54,571 nt of DNA from positions 1 through 54,571 of the forward strand of contig JAIBAP010000041.1 of assembly GCA_019695115.1 (NCBI GenBank). The letters are read 5' to 3'. Source of the DNA: Caldilineales bacterium. GTDB taxonomy: Bacteria > Chloroflexota > Anaerolineae > J102. The notes beneath the pieces are model-generated. The model was given only the letters and a program-made list of their open reading frames with translations. It did no database searches and had not been told where the DNA came from. The position numbers and the translations under genes are program-made. Positions 933 to 37,965 of the stretch are shown here, piece after piece (the stretch's first letter is position 1; the number at the start of each line of letters is the position of its first letter).

Positions 933-972
933 TTCAGGTGCGACGCACTTCTCGAAGTGCGTCGCACCTGAA
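933..972. repeat. 40-nt perfect palindrome, family A copy 1
   Basis: Two 19-base arms around a central TC form a perfect hairpin. The inner 32 nt (GGTGCGACGCACTTC, TC, and the reverse complement) recur exactly at 8109-8140. It sits between two divergently transcribed genes, 28 bases upstream of the lipoprotein start. That position argues against a simple terminator and favours a REP-like dispersed repeat or a binding site. The rest of the gap from 803 to 999 shows only the ATPase promoter and a weak TATACT (922-927). Confidence 0.85.
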
Positions 973-2167: not shown

Positions 2168-2959
<792 letters not shown>

Positions 2960-2963
2960 GCCC

Positions 2964-3470
2964 ATGAACAGAACTCTCACGATCGTTCTTCTCGTCGCTC
3001 TGGTAGTCCTGGTCGCCGCCGGCAGTTTCTATGGCGGCATGGTCTATGGCAAACGGCAGGCGGCATCGACTTTTACCGCCGGCTTTCCGCCAGGCGGTGG
3101 GGCGCTGCCCATTGCCGGGCAAAATGGAGACTTTCAGGCTCTACGGGGCCAGGGGCAGGGCAATCGCTTCCAGGGCGGGGCCGTGCCGGCGGGGATGACT
3201 TTCGGCCAGATCGAGGGCATCGAAGGCAACCTGCTGACGATCACGGATCGCGACGGCAACTCGGTGAAGGTGCAGGTAGCCGACACGACCCTGATCGAGA
3301 AGAATGCCTCCGTTTCCGTGTCTGATCTCGCTGTCGGCGATGCCGTCATCATTTCCGGCAACCCCAACGACGACGGCAGCATTGCCGCTCGCTCGGTGCA
3401 GGTGGCGCCGGCCGGGCGCTTTTTGGGCGGCCCCGCGCCCGACGATGCCCAAGGCCAACAGGGTCAATGA
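2964..3470 (+). CDS. Membrane-anchored DUF5666-like protein
   Basis: 168 residues. There is an N-terminal membrane segment (residues 4-25), a Gly/Gln-rich linker and a small beta-rich domain (about 80-150) whose pattern FGQIEGIEGNLLTITDRDG...VQVADTTLIEKN...DLAVGDAVIISG resembles DUF5666. Such domains are extracytoplasmic and often sit beside efflux adaptors, but their function is not established. It lies 4 bases after the ATPase gene and 15 before the first adaptor, so it is probably an accessory of this exporter. Confidence 0.7.
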   Translation: MNRTLTIVLLVALVVLVAAGSFYGGMVYGKRQAASTFTAGFPPGGGALPIAGQNGDFQALRGQGQGNRFQGGAVPAGMTFGQIEGIEGNLLTITDRDGNSVKVQVADTTLIEKNASVSVSDLAVGDAVIISGNPNDDGSIAARSVQVAPAGRFLGGPAPDDAQGQQGQ

Positions 3471-3485
3471 GATCGGAGCAAGCTG

Positions 3486-5150
3486 ATGAAGACGATCACG
3501 CGCGTCCTCGCGGTTATCCTGGTTCTGGCGGTCGTGGCGGTGGTGGGTTACCGGCTGTGGCAGCAGCGATCTGGCTCGACCACCACCGCCCAAACCGAGA
3601 CCTTCACCCAGGTTGTGCCGGTGCAGGAAGGCGATCTCCAGGCATCGATCGACGTCGTCGGTGAGTTGTACGCGCCACAGAACCAGGAGATGCGCTTCGA
3701 GCGGCTGGCCGGGGCCGCCTATCTGACCGCGGTGGAAACGGAGGCCGGGCACGTCGTCCGGGCCGGGCAGCCATTGGCGACCATCGACGCCACCTCCTAT
3801 CAACAGGCGCTGGATCAGGCGCGTAGCGAATTGCAGGAGGCGGAGCAAAAACTGAGCGACCTGCAAACGCCGGCCACCGATCTGGAGAAGGCGCAGGCCG
3901 ACCTCAAGATCGCCCAGGCTGAGGTCGCCCTGCAACAAGCCCGGCAGAACCTTGACGACTTGCGCAACCCCGACCTGGCCGATCTGCGCGCTACGGTCGG
4001 CGATGCCCAACTCAAGCTGGCCCAGGCGCAGGAGAGCCTGACTGCCGCCCAACCCGACCAGAGCGCCCAAGACCGGCTGGCCACCCTACAAGACAAAGAG
4101 GCGGAACAATACGCCGTCTACAAGCGCCTGGCCGCCGAAACCTATTCGGATACTTTCTATCAGGATCGCCTGCGGCTGGCCCACAATGCCTTTTTGACGG
4201 CGCAGGATAGCCGCATCACCTCCGAGTTGCAGCAGCAAGTCAGCCTCCTGCGCGCCCAAATGCAGGTTCGCCAGGCCGAGGCGACGCTGGCGTCGGCCCA
4301 GGAAGCGTTGGCCGACGCCCTGGCCGGCGCCAGCGCCCTTGATCTGGCGCTGGCCGAACACGCCGTCGCCCAGGCGCAGGCCGATCTGACCGCTGCCCAG
4401 GAGGCGCGGGCGGAGTTGGAGACAGGGGCCGACGCGGTCAAACTGGCCGCCGCCCAGGCCGACCTGGACAAGAAACGCCTCGCCGTCAGCGAGGCCGAGG
4501 CCGACCTGACCGCCGCCACCCTCCTCGCCCCCTTCGACGGCACCGTGCTCGAAGTCAACGCCGAAGCCGGCGACCGCATCATCGCCGCCTCCACCATCCT
4601 CACCCTCGCCAACCTCGACCAACTCCAGGTGGTCGCCTCGGTCGATGAGACTACCATCCGCCAGGTGCAGCAAGGCCAGCAGGCCATCGTCAGCTTCGAC
4701 GCCTTCCCCGGCCGCTCGTTTCACGGCCAGGTGCTCTCGGTGCCGTTGCAGGGCAGTCTGCAAGGGGGCGTCATGGTCTACGAGGTTCCGCTCTCGCTCG
4801 ACGATGCCGGCGACCTGCCGCTGCTGGTGGGGATGACGGCCAATGTCAGCATCGAGACGGGGCGGGTGGAGAACGCCCTGCTGGTTCCCACCCTGGCGTT
4901 GCAGACGGTGAACGGGATGTATCAGGTGCTGGTCGCCAATCCTGCCGACCCGGACGGTCAGCCAGTGGCGACGCCGGTGGAGGTGGGTCTCAGCAACGGC
5001 ACGTACACCCAGATCGTCAAGGGCCTCGTCGCTGGCGATCAGATCGTTTATCAACTCGCCAACAGCCAGTCGAATCAGCCTGGCTTCGGCGCCATCCGGG
5101 CTTTCGAGGGCGGTGGCCCGCCGCCCGGTGGCGCTCGACCGCCTGACTGA
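3486..5150 (+). CDS. HlyD/MacA-family efflux adaptor, copy 1
   Basis: 554 residues. N-terminal membrane anchor (about 6-22), a split biotinyl-lipoyl-like domain (about 40-95 and again near 345-375, with LLAPFDGTVLEVNAEAGD), a long Ala/Gln/Glu-rich coiled-coil hairpin (about 95-335), then beta-barrel and membrane-proximal domains to the end. The family links an inner-membrane ABC permease to extracytoplasmic export. The C-terminal 40% is identical in protein sequence to the next gene (DNA 4398-5071), whereas the N-terminal and hairpin parts are only moderately similar. The coiled coil is longer than in E. coli MacA (371 residues in all). Confidence 0.88.
   Translation: MKTITRVLAVILVLAVVAVVGYRLWQQRSGSTTTAQTETFTQVVPVQEGDLQASIDVVGELYAPQNQEMRFERLAGAAYLTAVETEAGHVVRAGQPLATIDATSYQQALDQARSELQEAEQKLSDLQTPATDLEKAQADLKIAQAEVALQQARQNLDDLRNPDLADLRATVGDAQLKLAQAQESLTAAQPDQSAQDRLATLQDKEAEQYAVYKRLAAETYSDTFYQDRLRLAHNAFLTAQDSRITSELQQQVSLLRAQMQVRQAEATLASAQEALADALAGASALDLALAEHAVAQAQADLTAAQEARAELETGADAVKLAAAQADLDKKRLAVSEAEADLTAATLLAPFDGTVLEVNAEAGDRIIAASTILTLANLDQLQVVASVDETTIRQVQQGQQAIVSFDAFPGRSFHGQVLSVPLQGSLQGGVMVYEVPLSLDDAGDLPLLVGMTANVSIETGRVENALLVPTLALQTVNGMYQVLVANPADPDGQPVATPVEVGLSNGTYTQIVKGLVAGDQIVYQLANSQSNQPGFGAIRAFEGGGPPPGGARPPD
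4398..5071 (+). repeat. Direct repeat, copy 1 (adaptor C-terminal half)
   Basis: A 674-bp segment matching 6099-6772. By eye I count four differences, all at synonymous third positions. The match ends abruptly on both sides within coding sequence. Confidence 0.93.
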
Positions 5151-5168
5151 GACGCGGGAAACACTGCG

Positions 5169-6836
5169 ATGAAATCACATTCCGTTCGCTATCTCATGGC
5201 CGGCGTCGTGGTTCTTGCCGTCGCTGCCGGAGCTTTCTGGCTCTATCGCACACGGACGACCGCCGCCACCGCTGCCGCCGCCACCAGCACCACTTTCACC
5301 CAAACGGTGGCTGTGCAGCAGGGCAACCTCGACGCCAGCCTCGACGTGGTAGGACAGCTCGAGGCCGTGCAACAGCAGGATCTGTCTTTCGACCGTCTGA
5401 AGAGCGCGGCCACGCTGCTGAGCCTGGCGGTGCAGGCCGGGAACACCGTGCGCGCCGGGCAGGCGTTGGCTGCCATCGATGCCTCATCCTATGAACAGGC
5501 GCTGGATCAGGCAAAAAGCGCCTTGCAGGAGGCTGAAGACACACTGACCGACCTGCAAGCTGCGGCGACAGCCTCGGAAATTGCTCAGGCTGATCTGGCA
5601 GTCGCCCGGGCCGGGCTGGATGTGCAAGAGGCCGAGTCCAATCTGGCGGAATTGGAGGCAGGCAAAGACCTGACCGACCTGCAACAGGCCGTGCAAACCG
5701 CGCAGGACAACCTGGATGTGGCGAAATTGCAGCAAGCTCTGGCCGAACACGACAGCCTGGCCGCCAGCGAACGCGATCTGCAATACGCGGTCGATTATCA
5801 TCAGCGCCTGATTGCCGAATTGCAGGCGCTGGCAGCAGCAGGCAAGGCCAACGCTGAGCAGACGGCCAAGATCGATAGCGAGCAAGAGACGCTGGTCGAA
5901 GCCCAGGCGCAACTGGCGCAGGTGCGCGCCGAACGACAGCTGGCCCTGCAAGCTGCCGCGGCGCAAGTGAAGACCGCCGAGGCCGGGTTGACCGAGGCGC
6001 AACAGGCATTGGCCGAAGGCCGGGCAGGCGCCACCGATCTCGATCTGGCCAAGGCCAGGCTGGCCGTGCAGCAGGCAAAGGTCTCGTTACAGTCGGCTCA
6101 GGAGGCGCGGGCGGAGTTGGAGACAGGGGCCGACGCGGTCAAGCTGGCCGCCGCCCAGGCCGACCTGGACAAGAAACGCCTCGCCGTCAGCGAGGCCGAG
6201 GCCGACCTGACCGCCGCCACCCTCCTCGCCCCCTTCGACGGCACCGTGCTCGAAGTCAACGCCGAAGCCGGCGACCGCATCATCGCCGCCTCCACCATCC
6301 TCACCCTCGCCAACCTCGACCAACTCCAGGTGGTCGCCTCGGTCGATGAGACTACCATCCGCCAGGTGCAGCAAGGCCAGCAGGCCATCGTCAGCTTCGA
6401 CGCCTTCCCCGGCCGCTCGTTTCACGGCCAGGTGCTCTCGGTGCCGTTGCAGGGCAGTCTGCAAGGGGGCGTCATGGTCTACGAGGTTCCGCTCTCGCTC
6501 GACGATGCCGGCGACCTGCCGCTGCTGGTGGGGATGACGGCCAATGTCAGCATCGAGACGGGGCGGGTGGAGAACGCCCTGCTGGTTCCCACCCTGGCGT
6601 TGCAGACGGTGAACGGGATGTATCAGGTGCTGGTCGCCAATCCTGCCGACCCGGACGGCCAGCCGGTGGCGACGCCGGTGGAGGTGGGCCTCAGCAACGG
6701 CACGTACACCCAGATCGTCAAGGGCCTCGTCGCTGGCGATCAGATCGTTTATCAACTCGCCAACAGCCAGTCCGGTTCCTTCTTCCGCAACTTCGGTGGC
6801 GCCGGCGCGGTCAGGTTCCTGGCCGGGCCGCGCTAG
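5169..6836 (+). CDS. HlyD/MacA-family efflux adaptor, copy 2
   Basis: 555 residues with the same plan as the upstream adaptor: membrane anchor (about 9-26), lipoyl-like half-motif, long coiled-coil hairpin, second lipoyl half, beta-barrel and membrane-proximal domains. The first 310 residues are diverged from copy 1 (for example FTQTVAVQQGNLDASLDVVG against FTQVVPVQEGDLQASIDVVG). From EARAELETG to LANSQS the two proteins are identical. Only the final dozen residues differ again. It is 18 bases after copy 1 and 24 before the permease. Two adaptors with one permease could form a mixed hexamer or alternate; this is inference. Confidence 0.88.
   Translation: MKSHSVRYLMAGVVVLAVAAGAFWLYRTRTTAATAAAATSTTFTQTVAVQQGNLDASLDVVGQLEAVQQQDLSFDRLKSAATLLSLAVQAGNTVRAGQALAAIDASSYEQALDQAKSALQEAEDTLTDLQAAATASEIAQADLAVARAGLDVQEAESNLAELEAGKDLTDLQQAVQTAQDNLDVAKLQQALAEHDSLAASERDLQYAVDYHQRLIAELQALAAAGKANAEQTAKIDSEQETLVEAQAQLAQVRAERQLALQAAAAQVKTAEAGLTEAQQALAEGRAGATDLDLAKARLAVQQAKVSLQSAQEARAELETGADAVKLAAAQADLDKKRLAVSEAEADLTAATLLAPFDGTVLEVNAEAGDRIIAASTILTLANLDQLQVVASVDETTIRQVQQGQQAIVSFDAFPGRSFHGQVLSVPLQGSLQGGVMVYEVPLSLDDAGDLPLLVGMTANVSIETGRVENALLVPTLALQTVNGMYQVLVANPADPDGQPVATPVEVGLSNGTYTQIVKGLVAGDQIVYQLANSQSGSFFRNFGGAGAVRFLAGPR
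6099..6772 (+). repeat. Direct repeat, copy 2 (adaptor C-terminal half)
   Basis: Partner of 4398-5071, offset by 1701 bp. Near-identity with only synonymous changes points to recent gene conversion or partial duplication. Confidence 0.93.
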
Positions 6837-6860: not shown

Positions 6861-8093
6861 ATGCGCAAATTGCTCATGGTCTTGCGGGTGGCGCTGCGTG
6901 CGGTTGCCGCTCACAAAATGCGGTCGTTTCTGACCATGTTGGGCGTGGTCATCGGCGTCGCCGCCGTGATTGCCCTTGTGGCCGTCGGCAAAGGGGCGCA
7001 GGCCCAGGTGGTCAGCCAGTTCGAATCCCTCGGCTCGAACCTGCTGGTGGTCACGACTGGCGCCAACTTTGGCTTTGGCCCCGGCGGTCTGCGCGAGACG
7101 ACGAAGAGCCTGACGAATGCAGAAGTGGACGCTATCCACGCCCTGGCGACGGCCGTCAAGCTGATGGCCCCCCAATACAATGCCAATGCCACGGCCACGC
7201 ACGGCGGCAAGACGACCAACCTGAATGTGAACGGCGTCACCGCCGACTATGCCGAGGTGCGCAACTACCGGGTAGCCAACGGCCGCTTCATCAGCCAGCA
7301 GGACGATGCCACGCTGGCGTCGGTGGTCATCCTGGGACAGACGGTGGTCGAAGACCTCTTCGGCAGCACGTTGGTCAATCCCGTGGGGCAGACGGTGCGA
7401 ATCAACCGCCAGAATTATGAGGTCATCGGCGTCCTGGAGAGCAAGGGACAGAGCGGCTTCAACAATCAGGACAATGTCATCCTGATGCCATTGCGCACGG
7501 CGCAACTGAAATTGGGCGGGGCCGGCAACCAGGACATCAGCCAGATCAATTTGCAGGTGCGTTCGGCTGAAGAGATGGACCTGGCGCAGGCGCAGGTGAC
7601 GGCCATCGTGCGCACCCTACACGGGCTGAGCGGCAGCCAAGAGGACGATTTCACGGTGCAAAACCAGGCCGACATCCTCAGTACAGTCGCAGAGACGACC
7701 GGCACCTTCACCACGCTGCTCGGCAGCATTGCCGCCATCTCGCTGCTGGTGGGTGGGATCGGGATCATGAATATCATGTTGGTGAGCGTCACCGAACGCA
7801 CGCGCGAGATCGGTCTGCGCAAGGCCGTGGGCGCCAAACAGCGCGACATCCTCATCCAATTCCTGACTGAGGCCGTGCTGCTGAGCGTGGTCGGCGGGGC
7901 GCTGGGCGTGGCCCTGGGCATCGGCGGCGCCCAGGTGATCACCCCCCTGCTGGGCAGCAGCCAGGCGCTGGTGACCGCCGACAGTGTGATGCTGGCGCTG
8001 GTGGTGTCGCTGGGCATCGGCATCTTCTTCGGCCTCTACCCTGCCAACCGCGCCGCCGGCTTGAACCCAATCGACGCGCTGCGCTACGAATGA
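6861..8093 (+). CDS. FtsX/MacB-type ABC permease
   Basis: 410 residues. First transmembrane helix at about 22-45 (MRSFLTMLGVVIGVAAVIALVAVG), a large extracytoplasmic MacB_PCD-like domain (about 50-280), then three C-terminal helices with the conserved FtsX wording SLLVGGIGIMNIMLVSVTER followed by TREIGLRKAVGA. It is the membrane partner of the ATPase at 2168 and the adaptors just upstream. Substrate is unknown: the family exports macrolides, peptides or lipoproteins. An AGGAGG (6843-6848) lies 12 bases upstream of the ATG. The protein lacks a fused ATPase, unlike E. coli MacB. Confidence 0.9.
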   Translation: MRKLLMVLRVALRAVAAHKMRSFLTMLGVVIGVAAVIALVAVGKGAQAQVVSQFESLGSNLLVVTTGANFGFGPGGLRETTKSLTNAEVDAIHALATAVKLMAPQYNANATATHGGKTTNLNVNGVTADYAEVRNYRVANGRFISQQDDATLASVVILGQTVVEDLFGSTLVNPVGQTVRINRQNYEVIGVLESKGQSGFNNQDNVILMPLRTAQLKLGGAGNQDISQINLQVRSAEEMDLAQAQVTAIVRTLHGLSGSQEDDFTVQNQADILSTVAETTGTFTTLLGSIAAISLLVGGIGIMNIMLVSVTERTREIGLRKAVGAKQRDILIQFLTEAVLLSVVGGALGVALGIGGAQVITPLLGSSQALVTADSVMLALVVSLGIGIFFGLYPANRAAGLNPIDALRYE

Positions 8094-8108: not shown

Positions 8109-8140
8109 GGTGCGACGCACTTCTCGAAGTGCGTCGCACC
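8109..8140. repeat. 32-nt perfect palindrome, family A copy 2
   Basis: GGTGCGACGCACTTC, TC, and the reverse complement, identical to the core of 933-972. It lies 16 bases after the permease stop and before the dtxR-like promoter. Confidence 0.9.
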
Positions 8141-8200: not shown

Positions 8201-8232
8201 TCGCGCCCTGATCCCCTTCTGTCATTTGCCCT

Positions 8233-8272
8233 TGCCTACTTGTCTACTTGTCTACTTGCCTACCTGTCTACC
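8233..8272 (+). repeat. 8-bp tandem repeat upstream of the regulator
   Basis: Five units of TGYCTACY end 3 bases before the ATG. They occupy the position where a Shine-Dalgarno would be, and none is visible. Confidence 0.8.
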
Positions 8273-8275
8273 TCC

Positions 8276-8923
8276 ATGCACTCCCCCGCCGTCGAAGACT
8301 ACCTGAAAACCATATTCGAGATCGAACGCGAGCAGGGCAAGGTCGCGACCACGGTCTTGTCCGAGCGGTTGGGCGTGGCCCCGGCCTCTGTCACCGGCAT
8401 GGTCAAGAAGCTGGCCGAGATGAACCTGGTCGAGCATGAACGCTACCAGGGCGTGACCCTCACCCCGGCCGGTCGCAAGATCGCCCTCGAGGTCATCCGC
8501 CATCACCGGCTGGTCGAACTGTATCTGGCCGAGGCCCTGGGGGTGCCGTGGGACAGGGTGCACGACGAGGCCGAAAAGTGGGAGCACATCCTCTCCGAAG
8601 ACCTGGAAGACCGCATCGACGCTCTGTTGGGCCACCCCACCACCGACCCGCACGGCGCCCCCATCCCCACCCGCGACGGCCAGATGGCCCGCACCTCTCC
8701 CGACCGGCTGCTGGATCTGCTCCCCGGCCAGGCGGCCATCATCGACGAAGTCAGCGACCACGACCCCGACCTGCTGCGACGGCTGGGCGATCTGGGTCTG
8801 TTCCCGGCCACAGCCGTCACCATCACCGGCCGCGACGCTGCCGGCCTGACTTTACTCGCTGGAGAAACAGAACGCCTCGTGAGCAACGAGATGGCCGGGT
8901 ACATCTTCGTGCGCCGGCGATAG
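8276..8923 (+). CDS. DtxR/MntR-family metal-dependent repressor
   Basis: 215 residues: winged-helix DNA-binding domain (1-65, SVTGMVKKLAEMNLVEHERY), metal-binding dimerisation domain (about 66-140) and a C-terminal FeoA/SH3-like domain (about 145-215). The metal-site helix reads VHDEAEKWEH (95-104). Iron-sensing DtxR and IdeR have Cys where this protein has E100, whereas MntR has Glu. With E103, H104 and D8 this suggests a manganese-type sensor, as inference. The ATG at 8276 opens directly onto MHSPAVEDYLKTIFE, the family start. No metal transporter is in the window. Confidence 0.88.
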   Translation: MHSPAVEDYLKTIFEIEREQGKVATTVLSERLGVAPASVTGMVKKLAEMNLVEHERYQGVTLTPAGRKIALEVIRHHRLVELYLAEALGVPWDRVHDEAEKWEHILSEDLEDRIDALLGHPTTDPHGAPIPTRDGQMARTSPDRLLDLLPGQAAIIDEVSDHDPDLLRRLGDLGLFPATAVTITGRDAAGLTLLAGETERLVSNEMAGYIFVRRR

Positions 8924-29534: not shown

Positions 29535-32500
29535 TCAATGCGCCCGCAGCAGTGTGGGCAGGAAGACCCTGATCGGCGGTGGGGCGAAGGGGAAGCTGAC
29601 CGTCGCCCGCTCGCCGTTTGCCAGCAGGCTCACCTGGCGGGTGCGTGGGCCGAGCGGTTCGTACGCGGCCGGCCAGCTTTCGACCGTGACTTGGTAGACA
29701 TCCGGCGGCAGGTCCTGCATCACATACTGGCCCGGCAGGAACATGTCCGGGCCGGTGGTGACAAGGCCGACGCGCTCGCCCTGGCTGTTGGTCAGGCTGA
29801 GGACGATGTCGTTCAGGGCCGGCTCCTCGGCGTAGACGCCATCGGCGTCGTTGTCCAGCCAGGCCAGGCCGTCGACGACGACGCTGGGGCAGGGTTCTTC
29901 GCCTGCGGCCAGGGCGCCGGCGGCGGCGCGGCAGGAGCCGACGTTGATGATCGTCAGCCAGTGGTCTTCCACCTCGCCGCTGCTGGCCGGGCCGGCCGGG
30001 GCGGCCACTTCGGCGGCGTCGTTGGCAAGCCGGCAGCGCAGATAGCTGACTCCGGGCGTGGGTACGGCGAAGCCGCTGAAGGTGAGATTGAGCGACTGGC
30101 GGCTGGCCGAACTGTTGACCACCGCCGCCGCGCGCTCGCCTCCGTCCAGGAAGTCGCCGTCGCGGTTGAAGTCGATCCAGCAGGCCAGGCTGGCGGTTTG
30201 GCCGGTGTCGTTCAGGGCCGTCATCATCACGTTCACCGCGCCCGAGGCCGTGGTGATCACCGGCAGGACGACGACGCCATCTTCGTCATCCAGACCGGCG
30301 GCGTCGTCGGCGCTGGCGCTGGCGTTCTGCAGGCCGCCGTTGTCGCTTTCGGGGGCTTGGCGGCCCAGGTAGAGGTTGGGGATGATGACGTGGCTGGGGC
30401 CGTTGTCGGCGGCTGTGGTCTGGTAATTGCCGGGGGCAGCGCCGGGACCGGGGTCGGGGGCGTCGCCGTAGTCCCGCGGCAGGGTCGGCACCACATCCAC
30501 ACACACTTGCGCCGAGGCGGCCTGCACCGTGGCCTGGAGCGAGCCGCCGACCGGGGTCGTGGCCTGGGCCGCGACATAGCCGGTGTTACAGGTGCGCTGG
30601 TACAACGTCGTGGTGCGCGTGCACCAGGCTTTCTGCCCCGGCCCCAGCGGGCCGACGGTGCAGATGTCGCCCAGCACGCTGTCGGTGACGGTTACGTTGC
30701 TCAGCCAGGCGTCGCCGGTGTTGGTCACCTCATAGGTGTAGGTGACGGGGCCGCCCGGCAACACCTGCGGCGCGCCGGCCCGTTTGAGGATCGAGACCCT
30801 GGCCCGGGCATAGCCGAAGTCGGCGAAGAGGAAGCTCTGGCCGGCGCCGAGGTTGACCGGGTAGGGGTTGGGGCCGTAGGCGGCGCTGGTGAAGACGAAG
30901 CCGTGCAGCGGGCGACCGGCATCGAAGTTGGCGGCGGACACGCGGGCCTGGTAGCTGCCCGCAGGCAGGCCGTCGAACAGATACAGCCCGCCGCCGCTGG
31001 TGACATCGGTGGCGATGATGTTGTTGCCGGCATCCAGCAACTCGACCAGCACGCCGTCGATGCCCGGCTCGCCCGCGTCCTGGATGCCGTCCAGGTCGAG
31101 GTCGCGCCAGACGGTGTCGCCGATGGAGGAGTTGGCCGTGATCGTCTCGTAGTTGGCGTCATCGGCGTCCTGCACCAGGGTGTTGCCGTAATAGCCGCCG
31201 GTGGTGGCGCGGTTGAAGTGCTGGCCGGCCTGGGCGGGCAAGGGGCCGATGGTGCAGGTGTAGCTGGCGCCGGTGGCCAGGGGGTTCGGGATCGGGCTGC
31301 ACGAGCCGAGCGGGTAGCGGCTGTCGGTCAGGCTCACGTTTTGCAGCGGCACGTTGCCCACGTTGACGATGATGAAGCGGAAGTAGACATCGCCGCCCGG
31401 CATGGCCTGCGGCCCCGGCGCGGCGTCGGCATCCTGCCAAGTGGCCGCCCCATCCACCGACACCAATTTCTCGATGTCGATGGCCGGGCGAGCAGGGGCG
31501 TAGTAGTTGGCGTCGTCGGTGTCGCGCACGGGGATGCCCTCGTATTCGCCGGTGGCGATGGCCGTGTTGGTGTGCACGCAGCCTTCGACCTCGGTGGCGA
31601 CGGTCGCGATGATGCACTGGTAGCTGGCGCCCGGAGCGAGGGGGTTGGGGATGGGGTCGCAGCTATTGAGCGGGTAGACCGTATCCGTCAGGGCCACGTT
31701 GTAGAGCGGCACCCCGCCCGTGTTCGTCACCACGAAGCGGTAGAAGACCCTGTCACCCACCCGGCTCTGTGGCCCTGGCGAGATGTCGGCATCCTGCCAG
31801 GTGGCCTGTTCGTCGACCGAGACGTATTTCTCGACATCGATGGCCGGTCGCGTCGGAGCGTTGTAGTTGGCGTCGTCGCTGTCGCCCACGGGGATGTCAT
31901 CGTAGACGCCGGTGGTGCGGGCGGTGTTGGTGTGCTGGCCGAGTTGGGCGGTGGTGGGGCCAAAGGTGCAGGTGTAGACGGCAGCCGGGGCCAGGGGGTT
32001 GGGGATGGCCGGGCAGCCGCTGACATCGTAGACCGAATCGCTAAGGGTGACGTTCGAGAGTGGGACGTTGCCGATGTTGGTGATGACGAAGCGGAAGTAG
32101 ACGGCCTGGCCGGCTGTGGTCAGGGGGCCGGGCAGGACATCGGCATCCTGCCAGGTTTGCTGACTATCGACCGAGACCAGTTTTTCCAGGTCGATGACCG
32201 GGCGAGGCGGGGCGTAGTAGTTGGCGTCGTCGGCGTCGGTGAGGGTGTCGTTCTGATAGACGCCGGTGGTGACGGCGGTGTTGGTGTGTTGGCCCACCTC
32301 GGCCAGCAATGGCCCAATCACACAGCTGTAGCTGGCGCCCGGAAGCAGCGGGTTGGGGAGGGCGGGGCACGAACTGAGGTCGTAGCGATTGTCGCTGAGG
32401 GTGAGGTTGTAGACCGGGACATTGCCCACGTTCGTGATCGCGAAGCGGAAGTAGACATCGCCCCCAGCAGCGACGGATGGCCCCGGCGGCAGGTCGGCAT

Positions 32501-35500
32501 CCTGCCAGTTGCCCGCTTTGTCCACCGAGACGTATTTCTCCAGGTCGATGGCGGGGCGCGTGGGCGCGAAGTAGTTGGCGTCGTCGCGGTCGCTGACCAC
32601 ATCATTGCCATAGGCGCCAGTGGCGGTGGCCGTGTTCAGGTGCTGGCCGACCTGGGCCGACACCGGGCCGTGGAAGCAGGAGAAGCTCTGGCCGGGGGCC
32701 AACAGGGCAGGCGGCGTGCAGCCGACGAGGGTGTAGAGGCTGTCGGTCAGGGTCAGGTTGCTCAGGGTCACATTGCCGGTGTTGGTGACGATGAAGCGGT
32801 AGTAGACGTTGCCCCCGGCCACTGCCTGCGGCCCCGGCGGGGCGTCGGCATCCTGCCAGGTGGACTGGTTATCGACCGAGACCAGCTTTTCCACGTCGAT
32901 GGCGGGCGAGGCGGGGATGGGCGTCGGCGTCCAGGTGGGCGTATTCGTCGGCGTCCAGGTGGGGGTGGGGGTGCGGGTGGGAGTGGAGGTGGGCGTCCAG
33001 GTGGGGGTAGGAGAAGGCGTCCAAGTGGGTGTGGGTGTGGGTGTGGCGGTGCGAGTGGGGGCCGGGGTGTTGGTGGGGGTGGGCGTCGGCGCGAGGTAGT
33101 TGGCGTCATCGCTGTCGCCCACGGTGGTCTGCTCGTAGCGCCCTGTTACTCTGGCCGTGTCGGTGTGTTGGCCCGCCTGGGCCGGCACAGGGCCGTGGAT
33201 GCAGGTGTGGCTCTGGCCGGGCAGCAGGGGGTTGGGGATGTTGCAGCCAACCACGGCATAGACGCTGTCGGTCAACGTCACATCGCTCAGGGGCACGTTG
33301 CCCACGTTGGTGATGACGAAGCGGAAGTAGACGGGGTCCCCGACCATCGCCTGCGGCCCCGGCGGTGCGTCGGCATCGTGCCAGGTCGTCTGCCCATCCA
33401 CCGAGACGTATTTCTCGATGTCGATGGCAGGCTCGGAGGGGACGTAGTAGTGGGCGTCGTCGCTGTCGGTGACGGTGGTTTGCTCGTAGCGGCCGCTGGT
33501 GCGGGCCGTGTCGCGGTGCATGCCCAGCTGGGCGGCCTCCGGCCCGATGGTGCAGGTGTAGCTGGTGGCCGGCGCCAGGGGGTTGGGGATGGCCGGGCAG
33601 CCGCTGGTGGGGTAGACATCGTCGCTCAGGGTGACATCGCTGAGCGGGACATTGCCGGTGTTGGTGATGACGAAGCGGAAGTAGATGGCCCCGCCCTCGC
33701 TGGCTTGCGGGCCGGGCGGGTTGTCGGCGTCGTCCCAGGTTTGCTGGTTGTCGACCGAGACGTATTTCTCGATGTCGATGGCCGGCTGTGGCGGCGCGTA
33801 GTAGTTGGCGTCGTCGGCGTCGGTCAGGGTGGCGCCGTCGTAGACGCCGCTGGCCGTGGCTGTATCCGTGTGTTGGCCGGCCTGGGCGGGCACGGGGCCG
33901 TGCCAGCAGGTGTAGGTCTGGCCGGGGAGTAAGAGGCCGGGCGGGTTGCAGCGGTCGAGGAGGTAGGCATTGTCGGTCAGGGTCAGGTTGGTCAGGGGCA
34001 CGTTGCCAGTGTTCTTCAGCTCGAAGCGGAAGTAGACGGCCGCACCGGCCACCGTTTGCGGGCCGGGCGGGAGGTCGGCATCGTGCCAGGTGGCCTGGTT
34101 ATCGACCGAGACGAACTTCTCCAGGTCGAGGCCCGGCTCCGGCGGGATGGAGGTGGGCGTCCAGGTGGGGGTGGAGGTGGGCGTCCAGGTGGGGGTGTGG
34201 GTAGGAGTCCAGGTCGGCGTCGGCGTCCAGGTGGGGGTGGAGGTGGGCGTCCAGGTGGGGGTGGGGGTGTTGGTGGGGACGGGGGTGTTGGTGAGGGTGG
34301 GCGTGGGGGTGGGCGTGGGGGCGATGTAGTTGGCATCGTCGGCGTCGCTCACGGTCACATCGCCATAGCGCCCCGTCACCCTGGCCGTGTTGGTGTGCTG
34401 GCCCGCCACCGCCGTCACCGGCCCATGCCAGCAGGTGTGGCTCTGGCCGGGCTGCAAAGGATCGGGGATGGTGCAACCAACCAGGGTGTACATGCTGTCG
34501 GTCAGGGTGACGTTGCTGAGCGGGACATTGCCGGTGTTCGTCACCACGAAGCGGAAGTAGACGGGCGTCCCGGCCTGGGTTTGCGGGCCGGGGGGTGTGT
34601 CGGCGTCGTACCAGGTGGCCTGCCCATCCACCGAGACGTATTTCTCCACGTCGATGGCCGGTTCGGAAGGCGCGTAGTAGTTGGCGTCGTCGGTATCGCG
34701 CACGGTCGTCGCCTCGTAGCGGCCCGTGGCTGTGGCCGTATCGGTGTGCTGGCCGACCTGCGCCGCCACCGGCCCGTAGTAACAGGTGAAGCTCTGCCCC
34801 GGCGCCAGCGGGAAGGGGACGATGCAGGTGGGGCCGAGCGGATACACACTGTCGCTGAGGACGACGTCGGTCAGGGTCACATTGCCGGTGTTGGTGATCA
34901 CGAAGCGGAAGAAGACCGGCCCGCCCAGCGGCGCCTGGGGGCCTGGCGGGTTGTCGGCGTCGTGCCAGGTCTCCCGACCATCGACCGAGACGTACTTCTC
35001 GACATCGATGGCTGGCTGCGCCGGCGCGTAGTAGTTGGCGTCGTCGGCGTCGCTGACGGTGAGATCCGTCCATTGCCCGCTGGTGGCGGCCCGGTTGGTG
35101 TGCTGTCCCACCACCGCCGTGATCGGCCCGATGATGCAGGTGTAGCTGGCGCCAACGGCCAGGGGGTCGGGGATGGGGCTACACCCGGCCAGATTGTAGA
35201 TCGTGTCGGTCAGGGTGACGTTGCTGAGCGGGACATTGCCCGTGTTGGTAACGACAAAGCGGAAGTAGACATCGCTGCCGGCGGTGGTAGATGGCCCCGG
35301 CGGTGTGTCGGCATCCTGCCAGCTTTGCTGGTCATCGACCGAGACGTATTTCTCCACGTCGATGGCGGGCGGCTGGTAGAGACCGGCGTCCCACTGCAAC
35401 TGGTTGTCGCCTGCCAGGATGGTAATGACGGCGGTGTTGCCGGTGGCCGTGTTGGCGTCGCTGTCTTTCGTGTCATCGCCACCCTGGTCGCGCAGGGTGA

Positions 35501-37712
35501 AGAGGTAGTTGGCTGGCAGGTAGAAATGGACATAGTACGAGCCGGGGAGCAGGTCGCAGAAGAGATAACGTTCGTTATCGTCGGTCGCCCGCCCGCCCTG
35601 CGAGGCCCAATTGCCATCCACCAGTTTGAACAGCTCCACCCGAACGCCGCTCACACCCGTCTCGGCGCCCTCCTGGATGCCGTTGCGGTTGGTGTCCAGC
35701 CAGACGTAATCACCCAGGCAGGCCAGCCGGGTATTGCCGAAGTCGAAATCGCCCAAAGATTGATCGACCAACGTCACCTGGTGGCTGCCGACGGCGGGAT
35801 AGGTCTGCGCCCAACCGTTCTGCGGCTGCTCGGTTACGGTGTAGGTCCCCGGTTCCAGGTTGGCGAAGGTGTAGCGGCCGGCGCCATCACTGACGGCGGT
35901 GCGGTCGATGTTGTGCGGGCCGCCGCTGAGCCGGATCGTCCAACCGGGCAGGGCAGGCTCGCCGGCGTCCCAGACGCCGTCGCCGTCCAGGTCGCTCCAT
36001 TTGCGCCCGGTCAGGCCCAGTTTGCCGCGGTTGCCAAAGCGCACCTGTTGTTGCTGCGGATAGCCGAGCACCAGTTCTTGTTCCAACGGCGTCGTGTTGA
36101 CGTAGCCGGGATGGTTGTCGGCCTGCTCGACGACCTTGTAACGTCCGCCGATCAGGTCGGTGAAGGTCAGCCGGCCATTAGCGCCGGTGGTGCCACCGCG
36201 GTGCTGCGCCCAATCGTTGTTCTGCCAGATATAGAGCGCAAACTGCCAGCCGGGCAGCAGCGGCTCGGTTCCCTCGTCCCAGACGCCGTCGCCATCCTCG
36301 TCCAGGAACTTGAGGATCTCGAGCACAGAATACTGGCCGTTACCGAAATCCGCCCGCCATTGCGTCCAGGGGTCGGCCAGGGCGCGGGGCCGGGTCTGGC
36401 TAAGGGGGGTGCTGTTGACCCAGCCATTCTTCAAGGTCTCGGTCAGGCGGTAATCGCCAAAGCCGCTGACCTTGTCATGGAAGAAGGCATTGCCGTTGGC
36501 GTCGGTGACGGCGTTGAACTGGCCCTGGGGGGTATCGAGGGTGAAGGACCAGTTGGCCAGGTTGGGTTCGTCTTCCTGCTGCACGCCATCGAAGTTCCGG
36601 TCCTCGAACTTGTGGGCGATGATGAGATTGGTCGCGATCACCCAATCCTTTGTGGCTCGCGCCTGCACCGTCACCCGCGTCATCTGCCCCAACACCAACC
36701 GCTGCCAGGTGTCGGGGCTGAATTGCTCCACGAAGCGCGAGCCGGCCGGCAGATCCACCACCGCCGAAGCGGTGAGGACGGCCGAGCCGGGGGTGGCGCT
36801 GCTGACGGTGAACACGGCCTCGCCGTTGGCGTCGGTGACGGCGCTGGTGCGATCCAGGGTTCCGTATGTGGTGTTGACGTTGACGGTGTATCCCGCCAGC
36901 GGATAGACCCCCTTGCTCAGACGGACGGTGAAGCTGTGGCTCTGCTGGTAGGGCAGGAAGTTGGTGGCGCTGTTGGGCGTGATCGCCATCTGCACATTGC
37001 CCGGCTGATATTCGGGCGGCGGCGCCGCCGGCACCGAGGCCAGGATGGCGTTATAGGCATTGCGCACATTGGTATCGTAAGCGGTGTTGTAGATGGTGGC
37101 GTCGCTCTGATCCAGCAGCCAGCCATCGGTGAAGCGCCACACGGCCGCCTGCCGGGCCGCCTGCTGTACGGCGTCGTTGAGCGTGGGCGGGTAGTGCGTC
37201 ACCAGCCAGGCCACGCGCCAATCCGAGAAGAAGCCGCCATCCAGACAGTAGCTGCGGGCATTGGTCTTGTCGCGGCTGTGGTGGAGGTCGGTGCAGAAGG
37301 CGTAGGCGATGTTGCCGCCGCCAAAATCCAACTTGCCCAGGGGTGTGTCCAGGATCTTCTTGACCCCGCCCTTCCACAGGTTGACGGAGATGGCGATGCT
37401 GGGGTTGGGGGCGTTGGTGGGGACGACCCAGGTGGCGTCGCCGCAAACAGCCGCATCCGAGTCGGAGGGCGCCAATCGCCACAATTCGGGCAGGATGGGC
37501 GAGATGACGGGGTCGGGCGCCGGTGTGGCTGCGGGCGCCGGGTCGCCGGGCGCCACCGGCGCCGGGTCAGGGCCGGCCGCCAGGGCCGCGCCCGGCGCGA
37601 GCATGAGCAGGGCGATCAGGAACAAAACCTGGTAGAGACGGCGACGCCACAAGCGCGGCGCGCCGGCCCGATTCGCCTCAGCGGAAAGCGGTTGCCAAGT
37701 CAGTGCAGACAT
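29535..37712 (-). CDS. Giant thioester-domain adhesin with tandem repeats
   Basis: 2725 residues, secreted. Signal peptide about 15-46 ([20 protein letters not shown]). A Cys-Gln thioester (TQXA-like) domain spans about 85-235, with C140 ([10 protein letters not shown]) and Q188 (ARQAAVW) as the likely bond. Then a Big-like domain (about 240-345), five or so SdrD-B/prealbumin-like modules (to about 770), and 11 repeats of about 118 residues starting (I/L)D(V/I/L)EK-VSVD (781 to about 2190). Two Thr/Pro/Trp linkers interrupt these (after repeats 3 and 6). There follow another SdrD-B module, a DUF11-like domain, a GEVED domain ([10 protein letters not shown]) and a last beta module. The end is [11 protein letters not shown]; there is no LPXTG. 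An AAGGAG precedes the ATG. In known relatives the thioester binds host or surface amines covalently; the target here is unknown. Confidence 0.85.
32914..33093 (-). repeat. Thr/Pro/Trp linker microsatellite 1
   Basis: Six- and twelve-base units encoding [10 protein letters not shown]. The plus strand is a long series of GGTGGG runs. Confidence 0.85.
34141..34323 (-). repeat. Thr/Pro/Trp linker microsatellite 2
   Basis: As the previous linker, between repeats 3 and 4 of the adhesin. GGCGTCCAGGTGGG words recur on the plus strand. Confidence 0.85.
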
Positions 37713-37965
37713 GTCTTAGTCTCCTTAAAATCAGCAGGACAAAACAAAACGGCTGCCATTGTCCTTGTGCACGGGCAAGAGGGGGGGCGAGTGGTGTCAG
37801 TAGCGCCTGACATGCCTTGAACAAGGACAGAACCGCCATCGCCGGCCTTGGCGATGGTGTGTGCGAAAACCCCAAAAAGTGTTTCGATCAACGACAGAGG
37901 CACCGGCTCCCGGCGTTGTAGCCAGCGCCAGAGGCGCCAACCTCCACCTGAGCAAGCTCTCTTCA
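37713..37965 (-). promoter_or_regulatory. Long structured leader of the adhesin mRNA
   Basis: About 250 nt between the predicted start site and the ATG, without a convincing gene. Inverted repeats include GCGCC-AGA-GGCGC (37925-37937), CAACG...CGTTG (37889-37918) and CCATCGCC...GGCGATGG (37836-37857). I could not match it to a known riboswitch class. Confidence 0.45.

Follow-up and report, generated by a model that had tools for sequence, protein, structure and literature searches.

The window analysed here is a stretch of 54,571 nt from a Caldilineales bacterium of the Chloroflexota (contig JAIBAP010000041.1 of assembly GCA_019695115.1), and our subject is a tandem pair of adaptor genes, A and B, in an exporter operon that it carries. 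The genome is 5.99 Mb in 135 contigs and the window lies on contig 41. All the genes of the operon are on the forward strand, in the order ATPase, DUF5666 protein, adaptor A, adaptor B and MacB-type permease. The first (2174..2959; PF00005, 126 bits) encodes a MacB/LolD-like ATP-binding cassette (ABC) ATPase that is separate from the permease gene and is kept beside the adaptors in relatives. The DUF5666 protein (2964..3470; PF18914, 35 bits against a cut-off of 27) has a hydrophobic N-terminal segment, and the position of its gene between ATPase and adaptors is kept in most related loci. Adaptor A (3486..5150, 554 aa, with an A-type hairpin) and adaptor B (5169..6836, 555 aa, with a B-type hairpin) are 18 bp apart, within a single operon. 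The permease (6861..8093) has the MacB core domain (PF12704, 171.8 bits) and the FtsX domain (PF02687, 74.5 bits) of the MacB type; it has no ATPase domain, the ATPase being encoded separately.

Both adaptors score above the curated TIGR01730 cut-off of 94.9 bits (A, 143.4; B, 141.6), which places them among the adaptors (membrane fusion proteins) of the HlyD and resistance-nodulation-division (RND) type. PF16576 and PF13437 also exceed their cut-offs, and the parts follow the expected order of membrane anchor, helical hairpin, lipoyl domain and beta-barrel. Neither protein is MacA proper, as NF008606 gives 83.9 and 88.9 bits against an equivalog cut-off of 342. The structural model of adaptor A has helices at residues 2-28 and 103-343 and is weak elsewhere. 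A structure search with this weak model returned EmrA and MacA as the best matches, with template modelling (TM) scores of 0.16-0.20 over the query; it merely agrees with the adaptor family, and the remaining coiled-coil matches were disregarded. The locus is that of a MacAB-like exporter with a separate ATPase, a DUF5666 protein, two adaptors and one permease.

The two adaptor genes share a homogenised tract. The 674 bp at 4398..5071 (+) in adaptor A, which encode the base of the descending helix, the lipoyl half, the beta-barrel and the membrane-proximal part, are found again at 6099..6772 (+) in adaptor B, at an offset of 1701, with just four mismatches (4442, 4958, 4964 and 4988). All four are synonymous and at the third codon position, and there is a stretch of exact identity of 515 bp (4443..4957, +, equal to 6144-6658). 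At the same offset there are 39 mismatches in the 100 bp upstream and 56 in the 79 bp downstream, so that the edges of the tract are sharp; on this contrast chance similarity was set aside. An earlier note had reported near-identity over 674 bp with four third-position differences and sharp boundaries, and our offset alignment of both copies confirms it. At conserved residues the window pair uses identical codons at 188/191 positions in the C-terminal part (C part), at 23/45 in the hairpin and at 36/57 in the N-terminal part (N part). Identical codons are thus confined to the converted region, as in domain-limited concerted evolution, and codon identity falls to background in the oldest pairs of relatives (G005, 65/131; G040, 62/127). 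Synonymous mismatches fit recency and purifying selection and by themselves say little. Three of the four cluster in a stretch of 31 bp (P ~0.02 for random placement), perhaps at the border of an older conversion event.

Relatives were sought in 61 genomes (the window's own and its relatives) and then in 396 genomes of the class, of which 27 matched at E values up to 1e-60. These searches gave 16 tandem adaptor loci, spread over 14 genomes of the class. The window's genome has two, that of the window itself and another on contig 2 (C2); G203 also has two (a and b), and G005, G044, G160, G071, G113, G132, G106, G127, G098, G140, G070 and G040 have one each. A phylum-wide search of 400 genomes matched the family in the window's own genome alone (1/400). 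Three further tandem pairs (G047 C258, G026 C286 and G021 C190) were excluded as weak matches (~1e-30 to 1e-47) to more distant adaptors; the pairs of G047 and G026 have no clear dip in identity at the hairpin, and that of G021 has a dip without near-identity. Fragments from G036 and G177 entered some region trees only, and the A copy of G203b is truncated by a contig end. A search for the missing B copy of G036 found nothing beyond the A copy. Single-copy loci (G047 C9, G042, G103, G061, G076 and G153) were recorded and kept out of the trees. G106 was omitted from the constrained-tree tests, the arm profile and the Mantel tests, and G203b from the arm profile also.

The contrast between the ends and the middle of the genes recurs across these loci. 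Around the hairpin tip (bins from residues 181 and 211) A and B are 3-26% identical in 15 of the 16 loci, and in each bin from residue 331 to 480 they are 43-100% identical in all 16. The C parts are near-identical in the window, G160, G070, G140, G098 and G044; in the last three the N part is near-identical too, so an unlike hairpin is flanked by two homogenised blocks. In G106 both copies are A-type and hardly differ over their length (1515 bp exact). None of the 16 loci has an A and a B that have diverged evenly from end to end. Synonymous divergence (dS) between the A and B C parts is 0.02 in the window, 0.02, 0.03, 0.07, 0.13 and 0.15 in five other loci and 0 in G106. Over all loci it ranges from 0 to 1.46, so the conversions differ widely in age. 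In the hairpin, dS is ~1 or more and nonsynonymous divergence (dN) is 0.65-1.09 in 15/16 loci.

The trees divide in the same way. In the C-part tree (38 rows) every one of the 16 loci has its A and B as sisters, with bootstrap values from 76 (G005) up. In the hairpin tree (39 rows) there are two types across all genomes, with one of each in 15/16 loci and two A-types in G106. Paralogues thus group by genome in the C part and by type in the hairpin, the pattern of domain-limited concerted evolution. In the C part the log-likelihood drops by 1040.6 units when the A-types are forced into one clade, and forcing a locus's two genes together in the hairpin was rejected at all six loci tested. The types were named from the hairpin tree, which makes the support for that split post hoc; for the C-part test the names came from the hairpin and not from the region under test. 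Many N parts pair up by locus, but those of the window, G005, G160 and G113 sort by type, at low support (36-67); the window's own identity profile agrees with this. Gene order is A-B in 12 loci, B-A in G140, G070 and G040, and A-A in G106; the loci with the reversed B-A order are L070, L071 and L039. The C parts of the window and C2 do not group together. Homogenisation between these two loci of one genome was therefore rejected, and conversion acts within the tandem.

We considered whether the hairpin might be hypervariable. Same-type hairpins differ between species by dN 0.08-0.38, and the C part by 0.10-0.30 (10 comparisons, with the C part measurable in nine). The same-type rate is therefore ~1x to ~3x that of the C part, far below the gap between types, and the candidate was rejected. 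In one cross-type comparison, of G106 with G079, hairpin dN is 0.77 and C-part dN is 0.09. Distances between loci agree for hairpin A, hairpin B and the C part, with Mantel r values of 0.94-0.97 for 15 loci and 0.73-0.81 for the 11 closer ones. The three parts therefore descended together, with the C parts overwritten where they stood. As the hairpins are not fast-evolving, the comparisons demonstrate, at the level of sequence, a conversion that is recurrent and confined to the locus, that covers the membrane-side part and that spares the hairpin, of which there are two ancient types. The earlier proposal that recent gene conversion has kept the permease-facing ends the same is thus supported, and the event is not peculiar to the window.

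AlphaFold2 models place the boundary of conversion within a coiled-coil hairpin. The hairpin is predicted at residues 103-343 of adaptor A (3792..4514, +; tip loop at residues 218-222; predicted local distance difference test (pLDDT) values of ~80-93 in most of it) and at residues 106-348 of adaptor B (5484..6212, +; tip loop at residues 224-228). The distal part of hairpin A that is not homogenised is at 3897..4397 (+). Mean identity between A and B over 14 pairs falls from ~0.8 at the base of the hairpin to ~0.1 at the tip. With heights taken from the model, the fall matches on the two helical arms (r 0.91, 12 bins), which are distant in sequence. The window tract begins at about residue 305, at roughly the same height as the N-side homogenised blocks end on the opposite arm (G044, 136; G203a, 139; G070, 150; G140, 152; and G098, 154). 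Each type has a conserved patch of its own, directly after the tip in A (residues 221-241; 4146..4208, +) and directly before it in B (residues 195-214; 5751..5810, +), so that type-specific conservation peaks on opposite sides of the tip. Two ring residues named for MacA, E231 and T293 (PMC8277102), align by eye to E388 and T451, within the tract.

The earlier note had proposed that both adaptors dock on one permease and that their hairpins differ to suit two outer partners or two lengths. One MacB-type permease gene adjoins the adaptor pair at every locus whose contig extends that far, which agrees with the first part, the docking itself being what we infer. The idea of two lengths is contradicted, as the hairpins of A and B are equal within 0-4 residues in all 15 complete pairs, including shorter pairs of 229-232 residues. 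Two outer partners are not supported by the genomes: a search for TolC-type outer-membrane channels (PF02321) was negative in 19/19 genomes and positive in 7/14 control genomes, so the system is not a tripartite efflux pump in the sense of having such a channel in the genome. The Chloroflexota are described as having no outer membrane (PMC6013643, PMC10608941). It is thus unlikely that the two tips exist to serve two outer channels.

Both halves of this picture have precedents, according to the sections of the cited papers that we draw on. In TLR1/TLR6 (PMC2077338) conversion is limited to part of tandem paralogues that have a common partner. One region is converted independently in each species and the other keeps its orthologous identity; the codon-identity signature is the same, and the shared partner is proposed as the reason. 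Those genes, however, are mammalian receptors with one spared end, whereas the adaptors belong to a bacterial pump and in several lineages the spared segment is flanked by converted ones. Domain-limited conversion is also described in mtrA-1/mtrA-2 of methanogens (PMC4632066), prokaryotic operon duplicates in which one domain has long been homogenised and another is distinct, in a complex with shared partners. There the unlike part came from a gene fusion, whereas the adaptor hairpins are homologous in position and have apparently diverged in place.

TriA/TriB of the Pseudomonas aeruginosa pump TriABC-OpmH (PMC4338810, PMC13328181) are two unlike adaptors from one operon that serve one transporter; a mixed TriA/TriB hexamer is presumed and both are needed. 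Two unlike adaptors beside one transporter are likewise found at the 15 of 16 tandem loci with two hairpin types. TriABC-OpmH differs in having an RND transporter, an outer-membrane channel and adaptors 36% identical overall, whereas the window has an ABC/MacB-type system and no channel gene. No conversion is mentioned for TriA/TriB in the sections of the two papers drawn on here. Spr0693-0694-0695 of Streptococcus pneumoniae (PMC5768738) and YknWXYZ of Bacillus (PMC8277102) are MacAB-like pumps with a hexameric adaptor tube in a cell without an outer membrane. In the former a single adaptor forms the tube, which ends near the peptidoglycan; both differ from the window in having a single adaptor gene and no second hairpin type. 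A literature search on conversion and duplication in adaptors and bacterial paralogues gave, among the matches seen, none on conversion of adaptor genes. Domain-limited conversion and two-adaptor pumps are thus already known, and their combination in the adaptor pair of an ABC exporter was not found in the literature searched.

There are several other features in the window. A 32-nt near-perfect palindrome lies to the left of the operon (937..968, no strand) and a second copy to the right (8109..8140, no strand). It occurs at about eight places in the genome within two mismatches (reversed control, 0) and is possibly a small mobile or terminator-like repeat. The operon is followed by a gene for an MntR/DtxR-type regulator with a FeoA domain (8279-8923), and immediately upstream of that gene is a tandem 8-nt repeat (CTTGTCTA-like) at 8231-8271. 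Very long open reading frames overlap on opposite strands, at 29535-37712 (-) and at 29538-33932 and 34056-37820 (+); this is probably an effect of high G+C.

How might such a pattern arise? On our reading the adaptor gene was duplicated long ago and the distal hairpins then became two types. Recombination within the locus has repeatedly copied the membrane-side part from one gene to the other, always including the lipoyl half, the beta-barrel and the C-terminal domain and in many lineages the N-terminal part too, and the tips have stayed unlike. We favour the explanation, with a probability of roughly 60%, that both adaptors sit in one mixed ring on one MacB-type permease and that selection keeps the tips apart. 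We infer a mixed ring of six subunits on a permease dimer, with tips that do different jobs. If A and B share such a ring, the surfaces that face the ring and the permease must remain interchangeable, co-evolving with the one permease. The two tips would do different jobs in one tube, for example by pairing together around its mouth. Conversions that erase the difference between tips would mostly be purged by selection, and those that equalise the bases tolerated or favoured. A more specific version, which we put forward tentatively and think more likely wrong than right, is an ordered ring of alternating A and B. In this the A patch after the tip would face the B patch before the tip, and the types would interlock as the mouth, perhaps the gate, of a tube whose end lies in the cell wall, in a bacterium that has no outer membrane. 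Conversion would keep the six base positions equivalent while selection held the tips apart.

Several observations weigh against the mixed ring. G106 has two identical A-type copies and no B-type. There are also intact single adaptors, of the B-type in G079 and G121 and of the A-type in G035, and single adaptors broken by stops, of the A-type in G049 and the B-type in G145. Either type can therefore apparently serve alone in some lineages, and these single-type loci, with G106, weigh most heavily against both types being strictly required. The match in hairpin length rests on few independent changes of length, and outside the hairpin confidence in the AlphaFold models is low (mean pLDDT 58.9 and 60.3). 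A third MacA ring residue, Y276, aligns one position off, to E433 beside Y432. Two further observations concern the single-type loci. G106 (L062 5336-8689) and G079 (L066 4112-5797) belong to the same genus, a pattern that would fit the loss of one type in the first and of the other in the second. The stop-broken single genes at L042 5641-7335 and L067 5702-7411 stand beside an intact-looking permease and reflect either decay or assembly error.

The same recurrent conversion could serve a different arrangement, in which A-only and B-only homo-hexamers compete for one permease and their tips fit different wall contacts or substrates. The relatives with single-type loci, and G106 with its one type, speak for this. 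However, in the window the ring-forming surfaces are identical, which would promote mixing, the hairpin lengths track each other, the two genes are neighbours in one operon and there is no outer channel to select between. We regard competing homo-hexamers as an unlikely explanation, though the leading one of those set against the mixed ring.

The difference between the tips might instead have no function. The tips would have drifted first and then lost recombination, and the similar ends would convert by chance. Conversion does need similarity, and the tracts stop where similarity drops. Against this, both hairpin types are constrained (within-type dN is well under dS), have type-specific patches and persist together in 15/16 loci, and tracts over the whole hairpin are possible, as in G106, yet rare. 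Drift of this kind is, in our judgement, improbable. Near-identical ends around unlike middles would likewise result if one adaptor had been duplicated recently, time after time, and had on each occasion acquired a second hairpin cassette from elsewhere. This scenario is very improbable, as it requires ~15 independent imports of the same cassette and as the distances between loci agree for both hairpins and the C part; the weakly supported grouping of four N parts by type also speaks against it.

Finally, an assembly artefact, with one collapsed C part placed at both positions, has a negligible chance of being the explanation: the assembly is fragmented and the 515-bp exact stretch is longer than a short read, but four separate single-nucleotide polymorphisms (SNPs) distinguish the copies, many independent genomes have the pattern, and grouping by locus extends to pairs whose C parts are only moderately similar, which collapse could not produce. 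Relatives' contigs do break in this region. The contig of G036 breaks at an exact 77-bp end overlap (about residues 311-335), and that of G044 at an exact 82-bp overlap that is present twice in one contig; such breaks are expected because A and B share exact stretches. SNPs within the window's 515-bp stretch could have been lost by collapse, but the graded identities in relatives exclude misassembly as the sole cause. The finding also cautions that assemblies break or collapse at loci of this kind.

Whether the subunits of adaptor rings are equal or paired is a standing question for pumps of this kind. The adaptor pairs described here provide a bacterial example, replicated many times, in which conversion affects one part of a gene only. 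That two tip types are kept and the rest is equalised in many lineages points to the tip as having two roles and to the base as where the copies need to be interchangeable.

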